From NCBI GenBank assembly GCA_016188575.1, contig JACPHN010000218.1, positions 1 through 35,533 on the forward strand: a stretch of 35,533 nucleotides of DNA. Direction: 5' to 3'. Source of the stretch: Candidatus Schekmanbacteria bacterium. GTDB taxonomy: Bacteria > CSSED10-310 > JACPHN01. Below are positions 3,567 to 35,290 of this stretch, piece after piece. The first letter of the stretch is position 1; each line of letters opens with the position of its first letter. The notes beneath the pieces were generated by a model that was not told the origin of the DNA, made no database searches, and saw only the letters and a program-made list of their open reading frames with translations. A program made the position numbers and the translations under genes.

Positions 3567-4457
3567 GTGCAAGCGCCCATCCTCTTCGCATCGCTGGCCC
3601 GCGAGTCCGTTGAACGGGCTCTTCGTGAGGACATTGGGGCGCGCGACCTCAGCACCGAGGCGATGCTGCGTTTCGCCGGCTCTTCTCCCCCGGAACGGCT
3701 CGACGCCGTCATTCGCTTCAAGTCGCCCGGTGTCGTCTGCGGACAGGAGATCGCCCGGCTGACTTTCAATACCCTGGATGCCGGCGTTGAGGTTGACGCA
3801 CAAGTGGCCGATGGCACCGCGGTCGATGCGGGCGCGGTCGTCACCCACGTCCGCGGGCAGCCTGCCGCGATTCTCGCCGGCGAGCGCGTGGCGCTCAACT
3901 TCATGGCGCATCTTTCCGGCATCGCCGCGACGACCCGCGGCTTCGTGGAGGCGCTGGCGGGGACTCGCTGCCGGGTGCTCGACACGCGAAAAACCCTGCC
4001 AGGGCTCCGCGACCTGCAGAGATACGCGGTTCGGTGTGGTGGCGGCATCAACCACCGCAGCAGCCTCCAGGACGCGGTGCTCCTCAAGGAGAACCACCTC
4101 GCTCTTGCCGGCGGCGTTGCCGCCGCGGTCGGCGCCGCCCGCGCCGCGATCGGGCCCGGGGCCCGCATCGAGGTTGAAATCGAGACGCTGGAGCAGCTCG
4201 ACGAGGCGTTACAGCTCGGCATTGAGGCGGTGTTGCTGGACAACATGTCCGCGGCGCAAGTTGCGGAGGCTGTCGGGCGCGTGCGCGCGAAGCAAGCGCA
4301 GAGCGCGGGCCGCCCGCTGATCGTGGAGGTTTCCGGAAACATGACGCTTGACGGGGCACGCGCGGCCGCCGCGGCCGGCGTGGACTATGTCTCGGTCGGC
4401 GCGCTCACCCACTCGGCTCCCGCCGCCGACGTTTCTCTGGTTCTCGCACCGTGGTAA
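3567..4457 (+). CDS. nadC: Nicotinate-nucleotide diphosphorylase (carboxylating), quinolinate phosphoribosyltransferase
   Basis: NadC converts quinolinate and PRPP to nicotinate mononucleotide, CO2 and diphosphate in de novo NAD synthesis. The 296-residue product has the usual family length. It carries DTRKT (139-143), RYAVRCGGGINHR and the KENH segment (active-site Lys/Arg/His of the family), VEIETLEQ, LLDNM and the GVDYVSVGALTHS phosphate-binding end. The GTG start at 3567 is fixed by AAAGGAG at 3555-3561, 5 nt upstream. The end overlaps birA by 7 nt, so the two cofactor genes are translationally coupled; nadC-birA pairing is common in bacteria. No quinolinate synthase (nadA) or aspartate oxidase gene is in the window. 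Confidence 0.95.
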   Translation: MQAPILFASLARESVERALREDIGARDLSTEAMLRFAGSSPPERLDAVIRFKSPGVVCGQEIARLTFNTLDAGVEVDAQVADGTAVDAGAVVTHVRGQPAAILAGERVALNFMAHLSGIAATTRGFVEALAGTRCRVLDTRKTLPGLRDLQRYAVRCGGGINHRSSLQDAVLLKENHLALAGGVAAAVGAARAAIGPGARIEVEIETLEQLDEALQLGIEAVLLDNMSAAQVAEAVGRVRAKQAQSAGRPLIVEVSGNMTLDGARAAAAAGVDYVSVGALTHSAPAADVSLVLAPW

Positions 4458-5437
4458 GCGCGGACAGCGCCGAGCTCGCGGCGCTGCCGGTTCAGCTCGC
4501 GCGCCTGCTCTCGACCACGGCGATCGGGCGGACCGCCGTCTTTCTCGACGAGACCGGGTCCACCAACACGGCGGCAGAAGAGCTGGAGCGCGATTCCGCC
4601 GCTCCGGAGGGAACTGTCGTCGTGGCGCTCACGCAAACCTCCGGGCGTGGGCGCCACGGGCGCCCCTGGAGCTCGCCGCCCAAAAAGGGCCTCTACGCTT
4701 CGTTCTTGCTTCGCCCCAAGGTGCACGCCCGGTACGCAGTCGCGCCGGCGATGCTGCTCGCCGCCGCCGCCTGTGACGCGCTCGCGGAAGAAGGCGTTCA
4801 GGCGCTGCTGAAATGGCCCAACGACCTGCTGGTCCGCGGACACAAGTGTGGCGGCCTGCTCAGCGAGGGCAAGATTCAGGGCGACATGCTCACCTCATGC
4901 ATCGTCGGCCTGGGGATCAACCTGCTCCAGACGGCCGCCGAGCTGCCTGGCCGGCCGCTTTTTTCGGCGACTTCGCTGTTCCTGGAGTGCGGGCGAGCGC
5001 CCGGTCTCGCCGAGCTGCTCGCGCGCATCTGCAACTGCTTCGAACCGCCGTACATGAGCTGGCGGCAAGCCGCTCTCGCGGTGACCGCAAGCAGCACCGG
5101 CAACCCGAATCCACCGCCTATTCGCCTGCAAGGTTCGCAGAGAGCGCATCACGAGGACCCCCTACCTCACTTCCCCCCGCCAGCGGGCGGCGAGACGGAG
5201 GGGGGCGCCGCCGCGTCGACGTCTAATCGGCGGTGGATTCAGGGCAATGAGCTCATGGCCTGGCGACGTCGCGCCGACGCGCTCCTCGCATTTCGCGGTG
5301 CCCGGGTCCGCGTGGCGTGCGCCAGCGGCGACGTTGAAGGCGTCGTCCTCGGGCTCGGCGACCGCGGCGAGCTCCGCCTGGCCGGAGACGACGGCCGCGA
5401 GCGCCACCTGATCGAAGGGGATCTCTTGCTCCTCTGA
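4451..5437 (+). CDS. birA: Biotin--[acetyl-CoA-carboxylase] ligase carrying an in-frame palindromic-repeat insertion
   Basis: Biotin protein ligase makes biotinyl-AMP and attaches biotin to carboxylase BCCP domains. The start is GTG 4451, inside the end of nadC. The catalytic domain is intact: GSTN, GRGRHGR (65-71), KWPND (121-125), KCGGLL and GLGINLL. There is no N-terminal winged helix, so this is the monofunctional (class I) form without repressor activity. Residues 218-265 are not BirA sequence: they are translated from repeat element A1 (5104-5244), which entered in frame with no stop. After it the C-terminal SH3-like domain resumes (LMAWRRRADAL ... GDVEGVVLGLGDRGELRL) to the normal end. 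Without the insert the protein would be about 281 residues, close to family size. The insert lies between domains, so activity may survive. Confidence 0.92.
   Translation: MVSADSAELAALPVQLARLLSTTAIGRTAVFLDETGSTNTAAEELERDSAAPEGTVVVALTQTSGRGRHGRPWSSPPKKGLYASFLLRPKVHARYAVAPAMLLAAAACDALAEEGVQALLKWPNDLLVRGHKCGGLLSEGKIQGDMLTSCIVGLGINLLQTAAELPGRPLFSATSLFLECGRAPGLAELLARICNCFEPPYMSWRQAALAVTASSTGNPNPPPIRLQGSQRAHHEDPLPHFPPPAGGETEGGAAASTSNRRWIQGNELMAWRRRADALLAFRGARVRVACASGDVEGVVLGLGDRGELRLAGDDGRERHLIEGDLLLL
5104..5244 (+). repeat. Palindromic repeat A, copy A1, full length, inside birA
   Basis: The element is 141 bp with inverted ends GAATCCACCGCC (5107-5118) and GGCGGTGGATTC (5229-5240), extending outward to CCC and AGGG. 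Between them are the family's conserved GCGCATCACGA box, a C-rich then G-rich core able to fold (CCGCC-AGCG-GGCGG) and a CGTCGACGTC box. It aligns almost end to end with the reverse complement of copy A3 (15947-16086). Its length is 47 codons exactly and one frame is free of stops, which keeps birA open. Confidence 0.9.
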
Positions 5438-12255: not shown

Positions 12256-12363
12256 CGCATCACGAATGCCCCTCACCTCGCCTCGCCTCCCTCCTCCGTC
12301 CCTCCCGCCGCAAGTGGGGGAGGGACTGAGGGGGGCGCTGTCGCGTCACCGCTTTCGCCGCCG
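12256..12363 (+). repeat. Palindromic repeat A, copy A2, ends lost
   Basis: It has the same orientation as the birA copy. The CGCATCACGA box, the C-rich/G-rich core (CCCTCCCGCCGCAAG...GGGGGAGGG) and GGCGCTGTCGCGTC are present, but both terminal GAATCCACCG arms are missing or unrecognisable. Confidence 0.7.
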
Positions 12364-12502
12364 TGCTCATGCGGCAATCGGATCGCGGTGAGCGTATACT
12401 GAAGAGCATGCGCACAAAATCCTGGAGCCGCGACATCGGTGATGCTCGGGCCCGCGGTAGGGCCGCCGCCGTCGCGGCACCCGACCCCAGAGGAAGCGAG
12501 CC

Positions 12503-13371: not shown

Positions 13372-14682
13372 ATGTCAAGGGAGATTCGGGGCGTGTGGTC
13401 CGCGGCGGGAGCGCCGCCTGTGGGGGGGAAATCGCGGCGCTGTGGCGAGCGGCGATGTGCTCTGACGGTATCCGCCGCGCTCGTGGCCGCGGTGGTTGCT
13501 GGGGTCGCTACTGCGGCGGCGAGCTCTGACCCCGACTTCCCCTTCGCCGCCGGCTCCGCTGGCCGCGAGGCGACGCCCGTGACGTTGTCTTCGGTAAAAC
13601 TCCTGGGGGCGAACGACGTGCTCCTGACCTGGACGAAGTCCGTGGATCCCCGTTTTGCGGCCTACGGAGTCTGGCGGTCGACGCAGCCGCTGCCGGTACC
13701 CGTCTCCGCGCTCGCTCTGCTCGCGGCCGCTACGGTCGTCCTCGGCGCCGCGGCAGCTATACGCTCCCGCCGTATGCGCGCCGCGCTCTCCAGCGCTGCT
13801 CCGGGTGCTCGCGTCGCCGCCGCCGCGATCGCAGCAGCTCTTGCCGCCGCCGCCACGGCTGGGATCGCGGCGGGCATCTCCATGCTACCGGCGGATCCTC
13901 CGGGCGCCGGCGAGTGGCTCGCCGAAATCTCGCAGCGCTCAACCGTCCAATTCCTCGACCAAGACGTGCCGGTGGGAATCTATTACTACCGGATCTACGG
14001 CTTCGACGACGAAGGCCATGGCGTGTCTTCAAACGAGGTCGGCTTCTTCGCGCTGGCCCCTACGCCCACCCCGACATCCACGCCCACGTCCACGCCTACG
14101 GCGACCGCCACGCCAACGTCCACAGACACGCCGACGCCGACCGTCACCGCCACGAGCACGCCGACGCCGACCGTCACCGCCACACCAACACCGACTCGCA
14201 CCCGCACGCCGACGCCGACTCCCAAGCCGCCCTCGAAGCCCATCTTCCCGCTGTCCACCGGCAATACCTGGAAATACAGCGAACCCTTGGTCGGTGAGTT
14301 TACCTCCACTGTCATCGGGACCTATCAGACTGGCGGCAAGACCGTGTTCCGCGTTCACAGTTCCCTGTCATCCGATGACGGGCTGCTGCGCAACGAGAGC
14401 GACGGCACCTACTCGTATGGCTCGGTCGGCGACCCGTGGAGCACCGGGGAGCTCTGGCTCAAGTACCCGACTTCACCCGGTGAATCGTGGAATTTCGCCG
14501 GCACGGAGGTTTCGGTCGTCTCCGTCGACACCTCGGTCGACGTGCCCGCCGGCACTTTCACATGCGTCGTCTACCAGACGGGAAACCTGCTGTTGTACTT
14601 CGCTCCGGGTGTCGGCATGGTGCGGACCTACGAACCGGGAGGCGCGATCAACACGCGACTGTTGAGCTATTCGGTAGACTGA
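13372..14682 (+). CDS. Exported surface protein: FN3 domain interrupted by two hydrophobic helices, Thr-Pro linker, C-terminal beta domain
   Basis: I chose ATG 13372, 8 nt after GGAGGAG (13357-13363), giving 436 residues; a GTG at 13351 lacks such support. The order is: N-terminal signal or anchor (about 28-52); first half of a fibronectin type III domain (70-103, VKLLGANDVLLTWTKSVDPRFAAYGVWRS); an unusual insert (about 105-182) with two Ala/Leu-rich hydrophobic helices and IRSRRMR between them; the second FN3 half (STVQFLDQDVPVGIYYYRIYGFDDEGHGVSSNEV); a Thr-Pro linker (about 230-290); and a beta-rich C-terminal domain (LSTGNTWKYSE ... VPAGTFTCVVY ... YFAPGVGMVRTYE) of a kind found in bacterial surface lipoproteins. 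The last 16 nt overlap the convergent MFS gene. Function is unknown; a cell-surface role is inferred. Confidence 0.7.
   Translation: MSREIRGVWSAAGAPPVGGKSRRCGERRCALTVSAALVAAVVAGVATAAASSDPDFPFAAGSAGREATPVTLSSVKLLGANDVLLTWTKSVDPRFAAYGVWRSTQPLPVPVSALALLAAATVVLGAAAAIRSRRMRAALSSAAPGARVAAAAIAAALAAAATAGIAAGISMLPADPPGAGEWLAEISQRSTVQFLDQDVPVGIYYYRIYGFDDEGHGVSSNEVGFFALAPTPTPTSTPTSTPTATATPTSTDTPTPTVTATSTPTPTVTATPTPTRTRTPTPTPKPPSKPIFPLSTGNTWKYSEPLVGEFTSTVIGTYQTGGKTVFRVHSSLSSDDGLLRNESDGTYSYGSVGDPWSTGELWLKYPTSPGESWNFAGTEVSVVSVDTSVDVPAGTFTCVVYQTGNLLLYFAPGVGMVRTYEPGGAINTRLLSYSVD
14064..14232 (+). repeat. Tandem Thr-Pro codon repeats encoding a surface-protein linker
   Basis: Short degenerate ACGCCGACG-type units encode TPTPTxT. 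Within them a 27-bp unit beginning CACGCCGACGCCGACCGTCA recurs exactly with a 30-bp period at 14127 and 14157. Such tracts are prone to copy-number change by slippage. The resulting linker would be extended and possibly O-glycosylated, which is inference. Confidence 0.75.
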
Positions 14683-15941
14683 GGCGGCGCCGGCGTGGCG
14701 TGAGCCGCATGCACCTCGGGGATGCGCCGAAACAGGCGCACCACGACCACCAGTGACAGGGCGAAGAGGACGGCGCCGACGAGGAACGGCGCCCCCGGCA
14801 GGGGGGCGGGTGCCGACTGTGAAGCGAAGTAGGCAAACAAGCCGGCGGTAAAGATCAGTGGCGCCGCAATGTTGGTGAGGCTGACCAGAGAGGTCAGCGC
14901 CCCCTGGACCTTGCCTTGCTCCGATGGCGGAATCTCGCCGGCGATGATCGCCTGGATCGCCGGCCCCGAAATGCCGCCCAGGCTGCCGAGAGCGATGAGA
15001 GGCAAGATCATCCAGCCGCGCGAAGCAAGGCCGTACCCGAGAAAAGTGACCGCGGCGACGCCAAGACCGGCAATGACCGCAGTGCGTTCGCCGACCTGGG
15101 CGATGATGGGGCGGATGAGACCGCCCTGAACGATGGTGGCCATGAGCCCGACAAGCGCCAGGACCAGCCCGTTGGTCTTCTCATCCCAGCCATAGCGCGC
15201 CTGGGTATAGAGCACCCATACGCTTTCGAGTCCGCGATGGGCCAGCGACGCCAGGACAAAGGCCATGGCCAGGCCGGCCACCAGGGGGTAGGCGCGCAGG
15301 CGCCGCATGCTCGCCAGCGGGTGGTTGCGGCGCAATGAGAAGCTGGAACGTTCCTCGCGCGGCAGCGATTCCGGCAAGACGAACAGACCATACAGGCAGT
15401 TGAGCAAGGCGAGCCCGGCCGCGACGAAGAACGGCAGGCGAAGGTGAATGCCCCCGAGGATGCCCCCCAGGGCGGGACCGAAGATGAAACCCAGACCAAA
15501 TGCGACACCGACCAACCCGAAGTTTCGCGCCCGCGTCTCCACGGTGGAAACGTCGGCAATGTAGGCGTTTGCGGCGGTGTAGCTCGCCCCCATGGCCCCG
15601 GCGATGACGCGGCCGACGAAGAGCCAGGCGAGCGATGGTGCCATGCCCTGAATCACGTAGTCGACGCCCAGGCCACACAATGCGGCGAGGATAACCGGCC
15701 GCCTCCCGAAGCGATCGGAAAGCGCTCCGAGAAGCGGTGCACAGAGAAACTGCGTGATGGCGTAGGAAGCGGAGATCAGACCCACGAAGTGCCCGGCGCT
15801 CGCCGCCTCCCCTCCGGCGAGCTGCTTGATCAGCATGGGCAAGACGGGAACGACGATGCCGAGGCCGAGAATGTCGACGACCAGTGTAATGAAGATAAAG
15901 GCCATCGCGGGCCGGCGGGCGTGCGGACTGGCAGGGGTCAT
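14667..15941 (-). CDS. MFS transporter, TetA/drug:H+ antiporter (DHA1)-like
   Basis: This is a 12-helix inner-membrane protein of about 424 residues. Signatures are the motif A loop GALSDRFGRRPV, the TetA-type NAYIADVSTVETRARNFG after helix 4, and motif-C-like FGLGFIFGPALGG in helix 5. It looks like a TCR/Tet-family proton-coupled efflux pump; the substrate cannot be told, and tetracycline resistance should not be assumed. The start is ATG 15941; GTG 15947 is an in-frame alternative. Repeat copy A3 abuts the start, and its terminal AGG contributes to the AGGTG Shine-Dalgarno sequence. The 3' end overlaps the convergent surface-protein gene by 16 bp. Confidence 0.88.
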   Translation of the reverse strand: MTPASPHARRPAMAFIFITLVVDILGLGIVVPVLPMLIKQLAGGEAASAGHFVGLISASYAITQFLCAPLLGALSDRFGRRPVILAALCGLGVDYVIQGMAPSLAWLFVGRVIAGAMGASYTAANAYIADVSTVETRARNFGLVGVAFGLGFIFGPALGGILGGIHLRLPFFVAAGLALLNCLYGLFVLPESLPREERSSFSLRRNHPLASMRRLRAYPLVAGLAMAFVLASLAHRGLESVWVLYTQARYGWDEKTNGLVLALVGLMATIVQGGLIRPIIAQVGERTAVIAGLGVAAVTFLGYGLASRGWMILPLIALGSLGGISGPAIQAIIAGEIPPSEQGKVQGALTSLVSLTNIAAPLIFTAGLFAYFASQSAPAPLPGAPFLVGAVLFALSLVVVVRLFRRIPEVHAAHATPAPPQSTE

Positions 15942-15946
15942 GAGCA

Positions 15947-16086
15947 CCTGAATCCGCCGCCGATTCGATGTCGACGCGACAGTGCCCCCCTCCGTCCCTC
16001 CCCCCGCTGGCGGGCGGAGGTGAGGGGGGGGGTCTTCGTGATACGCTTTCCGCGCACCTTGCAGTCGAACCGGCGGTGGATCCGGG
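15947..16086 (-). repeat. Palindromic repeat A, copy A3, full length
   Basis: The 140-bp element with ends CCTGAATCCGCCGCC (15947-15961) and CGGCGGTGGATCCGGG aligns, after reverse complementing, along its whole length with the birA copy, including the GCGTATCACGA box, GACCCCC, the folded core and GTCGCGTCGAC. It lies between ileS and the MFS gene and touches the MFS ribosome-binding site. Confidence 0.88.
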
Positions 16087-16181: not shown

Positions 16182-19100
16182 TCAGTGCCCCGCCACGGCG
16201 CGGCGCAGGACGACTTGCAGCACGCGCTCATCCACATCCATGACCTCGGCGCCGGCTTCCGAAGTCTGAGCGGAAATCTCGAGGCTGGTGGCGAGCACCT
16301 CCTCCGCGATGTGCTCGGAAAACTGTTCGAGCGCCTGGCGCAGGTCGGCGGCGCCAGTGGCCAGCCGCAGCTCGATGCGGTCGGTGACTTGCAGCCCGCT
16401 GTCCTTGCGGAGCCTCTGCAGCCTGCTTACCGTCTCACGCATCAGGCCCTCGGCCCGAAGCTCATCGGTAAGGTGCGTGTCGAACGCCACGGTCAGCGTG
16501 CCCTCGGTTTGCACGACGACGTCGCCACGCGCCGCGCGGGTGACGATCACGTCGTCCAATCCAATCCTCTCGCCGCAGACTTCGACGGTCTGGCCAGCCT
16601 GGAGCTCTTGCCATTGCGCGCCGCCCCACGCCGAAATCGTTGCCGCTGCCTCCTTCATGCGTTTTCCCAGGCGCTTTCCGAGCGTGCGGAAGTTCGCGGC
16701 GAAGCTCAGCCGGCAAAGCGACGCGTCGTCGTCAACCACAACGACATCTTTGACGTTGAGCTCCTCGCAAATCAGCTCGGCGTGAGCCCGCAGCGCGCGC
16801 TGCTCGAGCTCGTCATGCGTGACCACGGTGCATGACGCGAGCGGCTGCCGCGTCCTGAGGCGGTGCTGTTCGCGCAATGCCCGCCCGCGGCTGACGACCT
16901 GGCGCGTGATGGCGACCTGCGCCTCGAGGTCGCGGTCGATCTTGGCATCCTCGACTTCGGGGTAATCGCACAAGTGGACGCTTTCGCGCGCCGAATCGTG
17001 CGCGCCTGGCGCGACGACCAGGCTCTGATAGACCGTTTCGGTGATGAATGGCAGGACGGGAGCGAGCACCTTGGTAAAGCTCACCAGAACCTCGTACAGC
17101 GTCCCGTAGGCGCACAGCTTGTCCTGCCAGTTCGCCGCGTCGTCGGCGTTTCGCCAGAAGCGCCGGCGGCTGCGGCGGATGTACCAGTTGGTCAGATCGT
17201 CGATGAAGGAGACCATCGGCGGCACCACCTTGTACAGGTAGTACCCCTGCATTTCGCTATTGACGTTGCGCACGAGAGATTGCAGGACGGAGAGGATCCA
17301 GCGGTCGAGCTCGGGACGCTGGCCAAGCGCGGGAGTGTCGGCCAGGTGGCGGCTGGGGTCCCAGCCGTCGACGTTAGCATACTGTACGAAGAACGACCAG
17401 GCATGGTAGATGGGCAGCAACACCGTGCGCACGACCTCGCGGACGCCGCGCTCCGAAAAACGCAGCGGCTCCGCGCGCACCACCGGGGAATCGATCAGGT
17501 AGGCGCGCAGCGCGTCCGCGCCGTACTCGTCCAGAATGCGATCCGGTGGCGGAAAGTTGCGCTTGGACTTGCTCATCTTGGAGCCGTCTTCGGCGAGCAC
17601 CATACCGTTGACGATGACGTTGAAGAAGGGCGGCTCGTTGAATATTCCCGTCGATAGCACGAGCAACGTGTAGAACCAGCCGCGGGTCTGGTCGAGGCCC
17701 TCGGCGATGAACTGGGCAGGGAACTGGCGCTCGAAGCGCTCCTTGTTCGCGAAGGGATAGTGGATCTGGGCGTACGGCATCGCGCCGGACTCGAACCAGC
17801 AGTCGAAAACGTCGGGAATACGGCGCATTTGGCCGCCGCATGCCGCGCAGGTGTAAGTCAAGCAGTCGATGAAGTGCGGGTGGATATCGGTGATGCGGCT
17901 CGCCGTCTTTTGTTCCAGCGCCGCCACAGACCCGACGCAATCCAGCGCCTTGCACGACTCACATTCCCAAATGGGAATCGGCGTTCCCCAAAAGCGGCTT
18001 CGCGAGATTGTCCAGTCCCGAGCTTCCGCGAGCCAGTTTCCGAAGCGCTTCTGCCCTACCGCGTCGGGGACCCAGTGGATTCGCTCGTTGAGCTCCACCA
18101 TGCGATACCTGAGCTGTTCCACGCGCACCGCCCAGGTCGGTACGGTCTTGTAGATGAGCGGCGTGCCGCTCCGCCAGCAGTATGGGTAGCTGTGCTGGAT
18201 CGTGGTCTGGCGGATCAAGCTACCCTGCTCCTTCAGGTCGCGGATGATGTTCTTGTCGGCATCCTTGACGTGCTGGCCGGCATAGCTGTGGACGGCGGGA
18301 AGAAAGCGACCTTCCTCGTCCACGGGATCGACGGGCTCGATCCCGGCGGCGGCGCACGCGTAGAAGTCCTCCTCGCCGTACGCCGGCGCCATGTGCACGA
18401 GCCCGGTTCCCTCATCGGTCGTCACACTCGCCGAGGGAATGACGAAGAAAGCGCCACCCTTGCCGCGGGGGTGCGTCTTTTTCTCCGCGAAAAAGGGGAA
18501 CAGCGGGGCATAGCCGAGACCTAGCAGCTCGCTGCCCTTGAGCTCGGCGAGGATTTCCGCGTCGTTGTCCAGGGTGGCCTCGAGCCGGGCGCGGGCGAGC
18601 ACGTACACGCGCCCATCTGTTGCCCAGCGCGCGCGGACATAGTCGATATCCGGGCCGACGGCGATCGCCAGATTGGACGGCAGCGTCCAGGGGGTCGTGG
18701 TCCAGATCAACAGCGAGGCACCGTCGGGGTCGCCGTCCAGGGGCACCCGAACGGTGATCGCCGGATCCTGAACGTCCCGATAGTCGAGGTTTGCCTCGAA
18801 GTTTGACAGCGGTGTCGACAGCCGCCAACTGTACGGCATGACGCGAAACGTCCTGTAGACCAGGCCGCGCTGCCAAAGCTGCGAAAGCACCCACCACACG
18901 GACTCCATGAACTCGAGGTCCATGGTCTTGTAGTCGTCGTCGAAATCGACCCAGCGGCCGAGCCGCGTGATCGTTTCCCGCCACTGCTCGGTATAGCGCA
19001 AGACGTTGGCCCGGCATGCCTCGTTGAACTTGTCGACGCCGTATTGCCGGATCGACGCCGGTCCGGTGAGGCCCAGGGCCTTCTCCATCTCCATTTCGAT

Positions 19101-19409
19101 CGGCAGCCCATGGGTATCCCACCCGAAGCGCCGCTCCACGCGCTTGCCGCGCATTGCCCAGTAGCGGGGCACGATATCCTTGATCGTGGAGGCGACAAGG
19201 TGCCCATAGTGAGGCAGCCCCGTGGCGAACGGAGGGCCGTCGTAGAACACGTACGCATCATCTGCGGCGCGCTGGTCGACGGATCTCCGGAAGGCGTCGG
19301 TCTTTTCCCAGAGCGAGAGGATCTGCCGCTCGAGGTCGGGGAAAGATGGGTTTTCGGGAACGGGAGGAAAGGCGCCCATGGCGATACCCGTATCAGGCAA
19401 GCTGTTCAT
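16182..19409 (-). CDS. ileS: Isoleucyl-tRNA synthetase, type 2 (eukaryote-like)
   Basis: This class I aminoacyl-tRNA synthetase charges tRNA-Ile and edits mischarged valine. The 1075 residues match the long type-2 form. The HIGH motif appears as HYGH (67-70) in GLPHYGHLVASTIKDI and the second signature as KMSKSKR (about 610). The editing domain and the GWDTHGLPIE segment are clear, as are Cys pairs (CESC, CAAC) and the long C-terminal anticodon-binding and helical region. Type-2 enzymes are often mupirocin-tolerant; that is family knowledge, not shown here. The start may be ATG 19409 or ATG 19379 (MGAFPPVPENPSFPDLE), which fits family N-termini better; neither has a strong Shine-Dalgarno sequence. 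lspA, often found next to ileS, is absent. Confidence 0.95.
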   Translation of the reverse strand: MNSLPDTGIAMGAFPPVPENPSFPDLERQILSLWEKTDAFRRSVDQRAADDAYVFYDGPPFATGLPHYGHLVASTIKDIVPRYWAMRGKRVERRFGWDTHGLPIEMEMEKALGLTGPASIRQYGVDKFNEACRANVLRYTEQWRETITRLGRWVDFDDDYKTMDLEFMESVWWVLSQLWQRGLVYRTFRVMPYSWRLSTPLSNFEANLDYRDVQDPAITVRVPLDGDPDGASLLIWTTTPWTLPSNLAIAVGPDIDYVRARWATDGRVYVLARARLEATLDNDAEILAELKGSELLGLGYAPLFPFFAEKKTHPRGKGGAFFVIPSASVTTDEGTGLVHMAPAYGEEDFYACAAAGIEPVDPVDEEGRFLPAVHSYAGQHVKDADKNIIRDLKEQGSLIRQTTIQHSYPYCWRSGTPLIYKTVPTWAVRVEQLRYRMVELNERIHWVPDAVGQKRFGNWLAEARDWTISRSRFWGTPIPIWECESCKALDCVGSVAALEQKTASRITDIHPHFIDCLTYTCAACGGQMRRIPDVFDCWFESGAMPYAQIHYPFANKERFERQFPAQFIAEGLDQTRGWFYTLLVLSTGIFNEPPFFNVIVNGMVLAEDGSKMSKSKRNFPPPDRILDEYGADALRAYLIDSPVVRAEPLRFSERGVREVVRTVLLPIYHAWSFFVQYANVDGWDPSRHLADTPALGQRPELDRWILSVLQSLVRNVNSEMQGYYLYKVVPPMVSFIDDLTNWYIRRSRRRFWRNADDAANWQDKLCAYGTLYEVLVSFTKVLAPVLPFITETVYQSLVVAPGAHDSARESVHLCDYPEVEDAKIDRDLEAQVAITRQVVSRGRALREQHRLRTRQPLASCTVVTHDELEQRALRAHAELICEELNVKDVVVVDDDASLCRLSFAANFRTLGKRLGKRMKEAAATISAWGGAQWQELQAGQTVEVCGERIGLDDVIVTRAARGDVVVQTEGTLTVAFDTHLTDELRAEGLMRETVSRLQRLRKDSGLQVTDRIELRLATGAADLRQALEQFSEHIAEEVLATSLEISAQTSEAGAEVMDVDERVLQVVLRRAVAGH

Positions 19410-19475: not shown

Positions 19476-19673
19476 CCTGAATCCACCGGCTGCTTGACGT
19501 CGACGCGACAGCGCCCCCCTCCATCCCTCCTCCCGCAAGCCGGGGAGGTGCTGCTCCCACCGCTTGGTGCTTGGATCGTGTGGTCCTTCCCTCCGCCAGC
19601 GGGGGCGGGCGGTGGGGTGTTCGTGATGCGCTTTCCGAGCAGTTTGCAGTCGCAGGGGCGGTGGAATCAGGGG
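19476..19673 (-). repeat. Palindromic repeat A, copy A4, long form
   Basis: The copy is 198 bp with ends CCTGAATCCACCGG (19476-19489) and GGCGGTGGAATCAGG. It carries the family's GTCGACGCGACAG and GCCCCCCTCC boxes and the TTCGTGATGCGCTTTCC box, but its core has about 55 extra bases compared with copies A1 and A3. It fills most of the gap between ileS and the downstream MBL hydrolase gene. Confidence 0.85.
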
Positions 19674-21439: not shown

Positions 21440-21501
21440 GCTGGCGTCCAAGAAAGGTGACAGTGATCGCCTTTCTGGGCTCCCGTGATGCCGGCTTTTT
21501 G

Positions 21502-21542
21502 GGCGTCGGCCGAATGTCGGGTGATGCTCCTCTACAAGTGTC
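21502..21542 (+). repeat. Repeat B, copy B1
   Basis: The 41-bp sequence beginning GGCGTCGGCCGAATGTCGGG and ending CAAGTGTC is matched at 39 of 41 positions by 25674-25714, and its first 17 bp by 35332-35348. In this copy it runs directly into a repeat A core. Confidence 0.8.
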
Positions 21543-21544
21543 GC

Positions 21545-21586
21545 AGGCGCCCCCCTCCCTGCCTCCCCCTGCAAGCGGGGGAGGCG
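21545..21586 (-). repeat. Palindromic repeat A, core remnant A5
   Basis: Only the C-rich/G-rich centre (CGCCCCCCTCCC ... GCAAGCGGGGGAGG) is present, in the same orientation as A3 and A4. No terminal arms are visible. It adjoins repeat B1. Confidence 0.55.
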
Positions 21587-21955
21587 GTGAACAGATACCA
21601 CCGCACCACGAGATTCTGTACCGTGGCGCTGAACAGCACTCCTGCGCCAAGATCTACGACACGTGTTTCGGACGTTGGCCTTCCCTCACTTCTTGGGTTG
21701 CAAGGGAATCAGCCACCGTGGCTTGCCGATGTCAGCACTGCGCAGGCATAGGGCTCCTCCTGCGGGCTCTGCGCCTGGTCTCGCCTGCATTTTCCGTCAC
21801 TCACAGATGCCAGGTGCGCAACTCGTGGGTTTGGACCCCGCCCAAGCCACCGCCGAAACCGCGGCCTTCAGGCCGGGGTTCGGGCTCCCTCCCACCGCCT
21901 GCGGCGGCGGGCGCCTCCCGAGACCTCGCTGTGCTCGGTTCCGCGGCGATTCCCC

Positions 21956-23083
21956 ATGACAGGGCAGCGGACGCACAACGCTTCATTGCGCGCGGCGAAA
22001 GCGGCGTGGATGGCGCTGTCGGCGTGGCTCGTCCTCGGCGCGGTGTCGCTGGCTTGTAGCGGCGATGAGCCCGCGTTGATCGCGCTCCCCCAGAGTGATC
22101 TCGTGCTGTTCAACCCCGATGCCGCCGCGATGCCGCTGACGCGGCTCGCCGATGGGATGCAAAGTTACTCGGATCTGTTCCGCGAGCAGGGTCTGGTCGA
22201 TTTTCGTCCGCGATTATTCCGGCACCGCGAGGACCTCGAGCGGTATTTTTCGGAGATAGACTCCAGGGGCGGCGCCTTCCCGTGGGTTGCGGCACTTCAC
22301 GGCGGCTACCTGCTGCAGCGCGGCTTCCGCTGGGGATACGAACCGCTGGTGTGCGCCGTCGTCGACGGCTCGCAGGAGCTCACCTACTCGTTGATCGTGC
22401 GGCGCGACTCCCCGATTCAACGAATCGAGCAGGCAAAGGGCGCCATTCTCGCCATGAACGACCTCGGCATCGACGTGGTCGACTGGTTCAACGTGATCGT
22501 TTTTCGCAACCAGCTCGATCTGCGCACCTTTTTCCGCCAGGCCATCGAGACCGACTCGCCGGCCTCAACGGTGTCGGCGGTGCTCTTTCGCCAGGCCGAG
22601 GTCGGCATCGTGCCACGCTACCTCCTCGAAGCGATGACGGAGGCTTCGAGCCGGATCTGGAAGGAAGTCCGGGAAATCTCGATATCGCGTCCCATCATGC
22701 TGGGCGGTGTTGCGCTGTGGGCAGGAGCTCCCGCTGAATTTGCGCGACGCGTGCGCGGGCTGCTGACCTCGGACCTGCGCAAGCAAGTGGGCGGGCCGGC
22801 GATTCTGGATGCGTTTCTGATCGATGGGCTCGCGGACTGCTCGTGGGAGGATCTGGATCGGCGCGAGGGGCGCTATCTCAGTGAGGCCGGCGCGGCCGTT
22901 CCCGACGCGCTCACCCGCCGCTTGGAGCTGGACCGCTTGAAGGCGAGGTGGCACAGCGAACTGAACCCACCGGCGGTTCGCCCTCAAGCTACGCGGAAAG
23001 GGCTCCGACGTCAAACCGGCGGTAGATTCCGGGCGACAGGTGAACCGGGCCGTCCGCCGCGACACCCGGCAAGATCGGGCTAG
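21956..23083 (+). CDS. PhnD-like periplasmic substrate-binding lipoprotein with repeat-derived C-terminus
   Basis: The 375-residue product starts with a lipoprotein signal peptide whose lipobox is VSLAC (C34), so it is probably anchored in the membrane facing the periplasm. The body has the phosphate/phosphonate-binding (PhnD/SsuA-type) look: LRTFFRQAIETDSPASTVSAVLFRQAEVGIVPRYLLEAM. No ABC permease or ATPase gene is nearby, so it may serve in sensing or with a distant transporter. From about residue 336 the protein is translated from the short repeat copy A6 (22961-23033) and following sequence, giving an Arg/Pro-rich tail of about 40 residues. The TAG stop (23081-23083) lies in a CTAG shared with the stop of the convergent glgP. 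The original C-terminus was probably near RLKARWHSE. Confidence 0.72.
   Translation: MTGQRTHNASLRAAKAAWMALSAWLVLGAVSLACSGDEPALIALPQSDLVLFNPDAAAMPLTRLADGMQSYSDLFREQGLVDFRPRLFRHREDLERYFSEIDSRGGAFPWVAALHGGYLLQRGFRWGYEPLVCAVVDGSQELTYSLIVRRDSPIQRIEQAKGAILAMNDLGIDVVDWFNVIVFRNQLDLRTFFRQAIETDSPASTVSAVLFRQAEVGIVPRYLLEAMTEASSRIWKEVREISISRPIMLGGVALWAGAPAEFARRVRGLLTSDLRKQVGGPAILDAFLIDGLADCSWEDLDRREGRYLSEAGAAVPDALTRRLELDRLKARWHSELNPPAVRPQATRKGLRRQTGGRFRATGEPGRPPRHPARSG
22961..23033 (+). repeat. Palindromic repeat A, short form A6, in the end of the PhnD-like gene
   Basis: The 73-bp copy runs from CTGAACCCACCGGCGG to GACGTC...CCGGCGGTAGATTCCGGG. Both arms and the adjacent TTCG.C.TCAAG..ACGCGGAAAG box are kept, but the C-rich/G-rich centre is deleted. 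It is translated in frame as part of the host protein. Confidence 0.75.
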
Positions 23084-25584: not shown

Positions 25585-25673
25585 GGCGTGCTCCGTTCCT
25601 GGCTTCGAGGCCGTGCTCGAGGGCGGCCATAGAATTTGTAACCGCTTTTTGCCCGCTGTGCCAGCGAATTTCC

Positions 25674-25714
25674 GGCGTCGGCCGAATGTCGGGTGATGCT
25701 CCTATGCAAGTGTC
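25674..25714 (+). repeat. Repeat B, copy B2
   Basis: It matches B1 (21502-21542) at 39 of 41 positions over GGCGTCGGCCGAATGTCGGG...CAAGTGTC. Upstream, both copies share a weaker CGC(C)TTT.TG..C pattern, suggesting the full repeat is longer than 41 bp. Confidence 0.8.
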
Positions 25715-25835
25715 CACGCGCATTGCGCCCGCCATGGTGCAAACCACATTCCGCCGCCGCCCAGTTTCCGCACTTGCTGGGGAGAGGGTGCGACGAACCG
25801 CAGGTGCCGGCGGTCGAGGCCCGCGGGGCCGGCCA

Positions 25836-27628: not shown

Positions 27629-27760
27629 GAGCGGTGCCTTGGCTGGGAGGGATCCGCGGCGGCGCGGAGCACCTGGCTCGGTGGCGAGCCGCCGCTCCTT
27701 CGGTTCTCGGAGCAACTGTAGCCGCGCGGGCGACCGCTGGCAAGCGGCGAGCGATCCCGC

Positions 27761-27891
27761 GGATCGCCCGCCTGTTAGCCCGCAAGCTGTGCGAAAAGCG
27801 CATCACGAAGACCCCCTACCTCACCTCCCGCCGCCGCAGGGGGGAGGCGCGGAGGGAGGCATTGTCGCCTCGACCACTACGATTTCGGTGC
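27761..27891 (+). repeat. Palindromic repeat A, copy A7, degenerate ends
   Basis: It is in birA-copy orientation. GCAAG..GTGCG.AAAGCGCATCACGAAGACCC is well kept, followed by CTACCTCACC, a CCGCCGCAGGGGGGAGG core and GTCGCCTCGAC. The outer arms have decayed (GATCGCCCGCC on the left). The right end overlaps the last codons and stop of the sulfatase-like gene (27877-27879). Confidence 0.75.
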
Positions 27892-35236: not shown

Positions 35237-35290
35237 CCCTGGATCCACCACCTGCTCGACGTCGCCGTGACAGAGGCCCCCTCCCGACGG
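35237..35290 (-). repeat. Palindromic repeat A, half copy A8
   Basis: CCCTGGATCCACCACCTGCTCGACGTCGCCGTGACAG and the following CCCCCTCCC match the same arm of copy A4 (19476 onward). The other half is missing. Confidence 0.65.

Follow-up and report, generated by a model that had tools for sequence, protein, structure and literature searches.

Introduction

The best-known examples of palindromic sequences inserted in frame in functional genes come from Rickettsia, which are small, AT-rich and intracellular. The Rickettsia palindromic elements (RPEs; Ogata et al., 2000, 2002) are described in PMC10969869 and PMC3733652 as ~150-bp palindromic repeats that lie in frame in unrelated, probably functional genes. 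In R. conorii, nearly half of the RPEs (three of ten families) are found in ORFs (PMC10969869). Bacterial MITEs have also been reported in ORFs, as for QMITE1/2 of Coxiella (PMC5896051) and the enterobacterial RU/ERIC elements (PMC2759123), while the GTAG/CGTC-tagged REPs are repeats of 20-40 bp that carry a GTAG or CGTC tag at one end and are RAYT-linked (PMC3733652). Here we describe the same phenomenon in an uncultured bacterium whose genome is large and GC-rich and whose phylum has been sparsely sampled; the target duplications prove transposition. The genome is represented by one draft assembly (275 contigs, 93.8% complete, 9.2 Mb, 66% G+C), and the window refers to the whole 35,533-nt stretch of DNA that was analysed.

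Results

A MITE copy is translated in frame within birA

The birA ORF scores 127 bits against TIGR00121 (cut-off 83.1) and is also matched by PF03099. Its start lies within the last bases of the preceding ORF (3567-4457), which we take to be nadC-like. The following features were mapped in the gene:

4451-5437, plus strand: birA, biotin--[acetyl-CoA-carboxylase] ligase, 328 aa, GTG start, TIGR00121 and PF03099
5100-5103, plus strand: target-site duplication GCAA, left copy, 4 bp, exact
5104-5243, plus strand: MITE copy in birA, 140 bp, element frame +1 reading PNPPPIRLQGSQRAHHEDPLPHFPPPAGGETEGGAAASTSNRRWIQG, placed by family matches, consensus and HMM
5104-5124, plus strand: left terminal inverted repeat (TIR), 2 mismatches to the family TIR
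5158-5204, plus strand: internal G+C-rich hairpin module, from folds of the birA copy and of the consensus
5223-5243, minus strand: right TIR, 3 mismatches to the family TIR
5244-5247, plus strand: target-site duplication GCAA, right copy, 4 bp, exact

A first-pass annotation of the window had reported a mobile-looking palindromic element of 141 bp (5104-5244) with inverted ends, a multiple of three in length, that adds about 47 residues to BirA. The inverted ends are the 21-bp TIRs flanking the internal hairpin, and the element frame is indeed open and translated, with the 328-aa ORF running through it; the element itself ends one base earlier, at 5243. Divisibility by three is a property of the net gain of 144 bp (5104-5247, the element plus the second GCAA) and not of the 140-bp element alone. 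This gain corresponds to 48 codons, one more than had been estimated, and the position given for the extra residues, 218-265 of 328, was correct. The protein reads ...SSTGN, followed by 48 residues ending in RRWIQGN and then by ELMAW..., such that the duplication appears as a repeated GN.

The insert separates the catalytic core of BirA from its C-terminal domain, both of which are intact, as had been proposed. The 48 residues are missing from all 12 BirA homologues aligned, including three from the same phylum, in a protein-level comparison with more distant relatives; the annotation had allowed that relatives might carry the same segment, and their BirAs lack it.

The element is a mobile MITE with many dispersed copies

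Additional copies were detected in the window:

15947-16086, minus strand: second full MITE copy, in the intergenic region that separates the genes at 14667-15947 and 16182-19409
19476-19550, minus strand: partial MITE copy, HMM positions 65-140
19584-19671, minus strand: partial MITE copy adjoining 19476-19550, HMM positions 1-92
27758-27882, plus strand: third MITE copy, HMM positions 5-117, right end degraded

The intergenic copy at 15947-16086 had already been recognised as the same element, with the caveat that the match might disappear upon pairwise alignment. The two copies are mutually inverted, and a same-strand alignment partly masks the match; in the inverted orientation it becomes stronger, with 84% identity over 140 bp (E 5.7e-38). 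The target duplication of the intergenic copy has decayed, with three of the four bases agreeing. Overall, nine TIR-like matches were observed in the window compared to 0.55 expected from dinucleotide shuffles, none of which reached nine. The two incomplete copies at 19476-19671 share the same orientation and may represent a single element that has been broken or one copy nested in another. Weak or partial matches were also noted at 2045-2095, 12286-12371 (hairpin only), 22961-23004 and 35239-35284.

The family consensus is 140 bp, the modal length; it has perfect 21-bp TIRs (CCTGAATCCACCGCCTGTTCG), ends of the form CCTG...CAGG and, internally, a GC-rich hairpin (DNA fold z = -9.5). It has no transposase inside, 140 bp being too short for one. 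Copies of the element number in the hundreds in this genome. An initial search listed 455 candidate places, and all 40 that were scored were convincing. The genome contains 1332 ends matching the TIR pattern and 468 matching a reversed-pattern control, an excess of ~860. Using an HMM of the element, we detected 173 copies in 2.32 Mb (~25% of the genome). Within this DNA, 803 kb of whole long contigs contained 32 copies, an approximate density given that these contigs were chosen for length among matches already listed. Identity between the two flanks was 0.59-0.68 per position at an offset of 4 and ~0.25 at other offsets, and exact 4-bp target duplications were present for 26 of 79 copies, compared to 0.7% for unrelated flanks. 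The TIRs, the fixed 4-bp duplication, the many dispersed copies and the lack of a transposase identify the element as a MITE. The target duplications together with the high copy number establish that it is mobile, as first suspected, and has transposed with duplication of 4 bp. By these features we class it as a MITE for which a DDE-type transposase presumably provides mobility. The majority of copies are located between genes or directly adjoin them (97 of the 173 are without a coding flank and 66 have one, by thresholds strict enough to miss birA itself).

A second repeat family, with ends GGCGTCGGCCGAATGTCGGGTGATGC ... CACATTCGGCCGACGCC, was found at 21501-21600 and 25673-25749 of the window and at 18 sites in 2.3 Mb. 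A G+C-rich hairpin of the type found in the MITE in birA recurs in some of its members, as though MITE families had such a module in common.

A full MITE copy also occupies another biotin-related locus, at 2271-2404 of locus L074 (contig C65), between a 1022-aa ORF and the next ORF. The former is presumably a BioA-BioD fusion-like protein and the latter bioF-like. Here the MITE adds a tail of ~48 codons to the upstream 1022-aa ORF.

Distribution of the element and search for a parent transposon

The element was not found in seven genomes of the same phylum, nor in plasmid and phage collections, from which its own genome is possibly absent. An exact TIR search of GTDB (85k species, again possibly without the own genome) returned 15 scattered single TIR matches only; these do not represent the element, and none is in a Rickettsia record. 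A match in a viral contig was a chance 18-mer, and no Rfam 15 family matched in the window. The element appears to represent a new, lineage-specific sequence family.

No parent with matching TIRs was present in the DNA read (25% of the genome). Pairs of TIRs spaced 0.7-3.5 kb apart were considered as an autonomous parent and were either pairings of separate short copies or unconvincing. Transposases of PF13701 (IS1380-type) and of PF01609 were likewise rejected, with no matching TIR pair in their flanks.

Copies are translated in other proteins without a common reading frame

The first-pass annotation had likened the element to RPEs in its behaviour and suggested a search for other proteins that contain it in translated form. 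In the ~25% of the genome that was read, at least five proteins besides BirA harbour an in-frame copy with coding sequence on both sides, a lower bound for the affected genes, in agreement with this likeness:

C173: kinase-AAA-TPR protein, copy directly after the AAA_16 match
C85: kinase-AAA protein, copy inside the AAA_16 match, exact duplication CGAG
C112: HPt protein, copy on the N-terminal side, exact duplication GCAA
C90: TPR protein
C194: kinase domain, insert dividing the Pfam match into two stretches, left TIR lost

C72 is probably a diverged copy of the element. C102 and C168 were rejected as family copies, as their matches cover mainly the internal hairpin also carried by the second repeat family. 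Additional long frames (~550-1100 aa) across translated copies, in C158, C128, C4, C160, C60, C64, C225, C165, C120 and C220, may be further in-frame insertions. Four cases of suspected out-of-frame gene disruption all look like copies between or beside genes.

Element frame +1, the one used in birA, is open in 76% of copies, and frames +0 and +1 are each open in about three quarters, which makes an open frame weak evidence of function. Across all six frames, 2.95 are open per copy compared to 3.15 for random 140-mers of the genome. The proteins of C173, C112 and C85 are read in frame +0; thus, different proteins use different element frames, and a conserved peptide in a fixed frame was not found. 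Since the element shows no excess of open frames over random genomic DNA and the frames used differ, no coding role is supported for the element, and the in-frame survivors look like passive tolerance.

BirA with the insert is very probably functional

We consider it very likely that a lineage-specific MITE inserted in birA and is read through as 48 residues in what is a tolerated insertion. With a transposase supplied in trans, presumably of the DDE type, the element would have entered birA between the segments encoding the catalytic core and the C-terminal domain. As 140 + 4 = 144 bp is divisible by three and the frame entered is free of stops, the ribosome would read through, giving a BirA with 48 additional proline/glycine-rich residues. 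Since this is the genome's only BirA, cells with an enzyme destroyed by the insert would have been lost, and the insertion seen would then be a tolerated one. In the simplest view this would be survivorship: a MITE in a gene is retained only if its length, its frame and the site in the protein chance to permit it.

The catalytic motifs GRGRHGRPW and KWPND are kept in BirA. Past the insert, the C-terminal domain continues in frame and aligns with the family at conserved positions, and the DNA downstream retains the codon signature of coding sequence. No second BirA was found in the assembly with a TIGR00121 profile search and a protein search; the same profile finds BirA in 14 of 14 control genomes. 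As the sole BirA of the genome, with intact domains, the protein is very probably functional, and judging from its sequence we infer an active enzyme. There is a small chance that birA is instead a recent pseudogene, inactivated by the insertion, with the ligase activity coming from a gene missing in the assembly. At 93.8% completeness the assembly could lack a second birA, and an open +1 frame says little about function for the reason given above; yet neither search recovered another BirA, and the frame, both motifs and an intact, coding-like downstream domain have all been preserved.

The inserted segment is proline/glycine-rich and probably unstructured, and would form an exposed, tolerated flexible loop. 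Solved structures represent the BirA family well. A scan of viral contigs yielded no BirA homologues for an alignment, so only a poor single-sequence AlphaFold model was possible (mean pLDDT 45.6, with residues 281-320 of the C-terminal domain as the only confident part, pLDDT 75-85).

Two ideas assign the insertions a benefit. It is very unlikely that the MITE family acts as an in-frame protein diversifier, whose 140 + 4 bp geometry and stop-poor frames would repeatedly furnish essential and signalling proteins with proline/glycine-rich loops, some of them put to use. It is likewise very unlikely that the inserted peptides are useful, as proline/glycine-rich linkers or interaction segments, and that the element is kept in frame on this account. 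Such usefulness would fit the independent occurrence of several in-frame copies, most of them in kinase/AAA/TPR proteins that are large and multidomain, and a length with target duplication divisible by three, but openness of the six frames does not exceed that of random genomic DNA, the differing frames leave no common peptide and nearly all copies are between or beside genes.

Finally, although repeats are often sites of assembly errors and BirA linkers differ in length (one homologue has ~16 extra residues), the idea that a BirA loop of natural origin, or an assembly chimera, just resembles the repeat has next to no likelihood in view of the 84% DNA match over 140 bp, the precise TIR ends, the exact 4-bp duplication and the fact that the sequences on either side of the junction are the halves of a single BirA and share one frame.

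Discussion

The birA insertion provides a clean, testable case of the tolerance of a core enzyme for selfish DNA, combining one essential-type gene, solved homologues and an exact, removable insert. Our observations suggest a rule whereby a GC-rich genome, together with an element-plus-duplication length divisible by three, lets MITEs survive inside genes. Such segments may be mistaken for natural loops by gene callers and family models.

Like the RPEs, the element is a palindromic repeat present in frame in birA and at least five other genes. It differs from them in its host, which belongs to another phylum and has a 9.2-Mb, 66% G+C genome, in its clear 4-bp target duplications and 21-bp TIRs, in its use of more than one frame, and in that the copies within genes are a small minority. 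With QMITE1/2 and RU/ERIC it shares TIRs, the lack of a transposase and the occasional in-frame insertion in, or terminal extension of, proteins; unlike these, it constitutes what appears to be a new family, with internal insertions in a single-copy biotin ligase and a kinase domain. The GTAG/CGTC-tagged REPs are similarly short palindromic repeats, some of them translated within genes, whereas the element described here is 140 bp long, has CCTG...CAGG ends without a tag and generates 4-bp target duplications. The kind of event is already known from RPEs and intragenic REP and MITE copies, while the host and the biotin ligase target are unusual.
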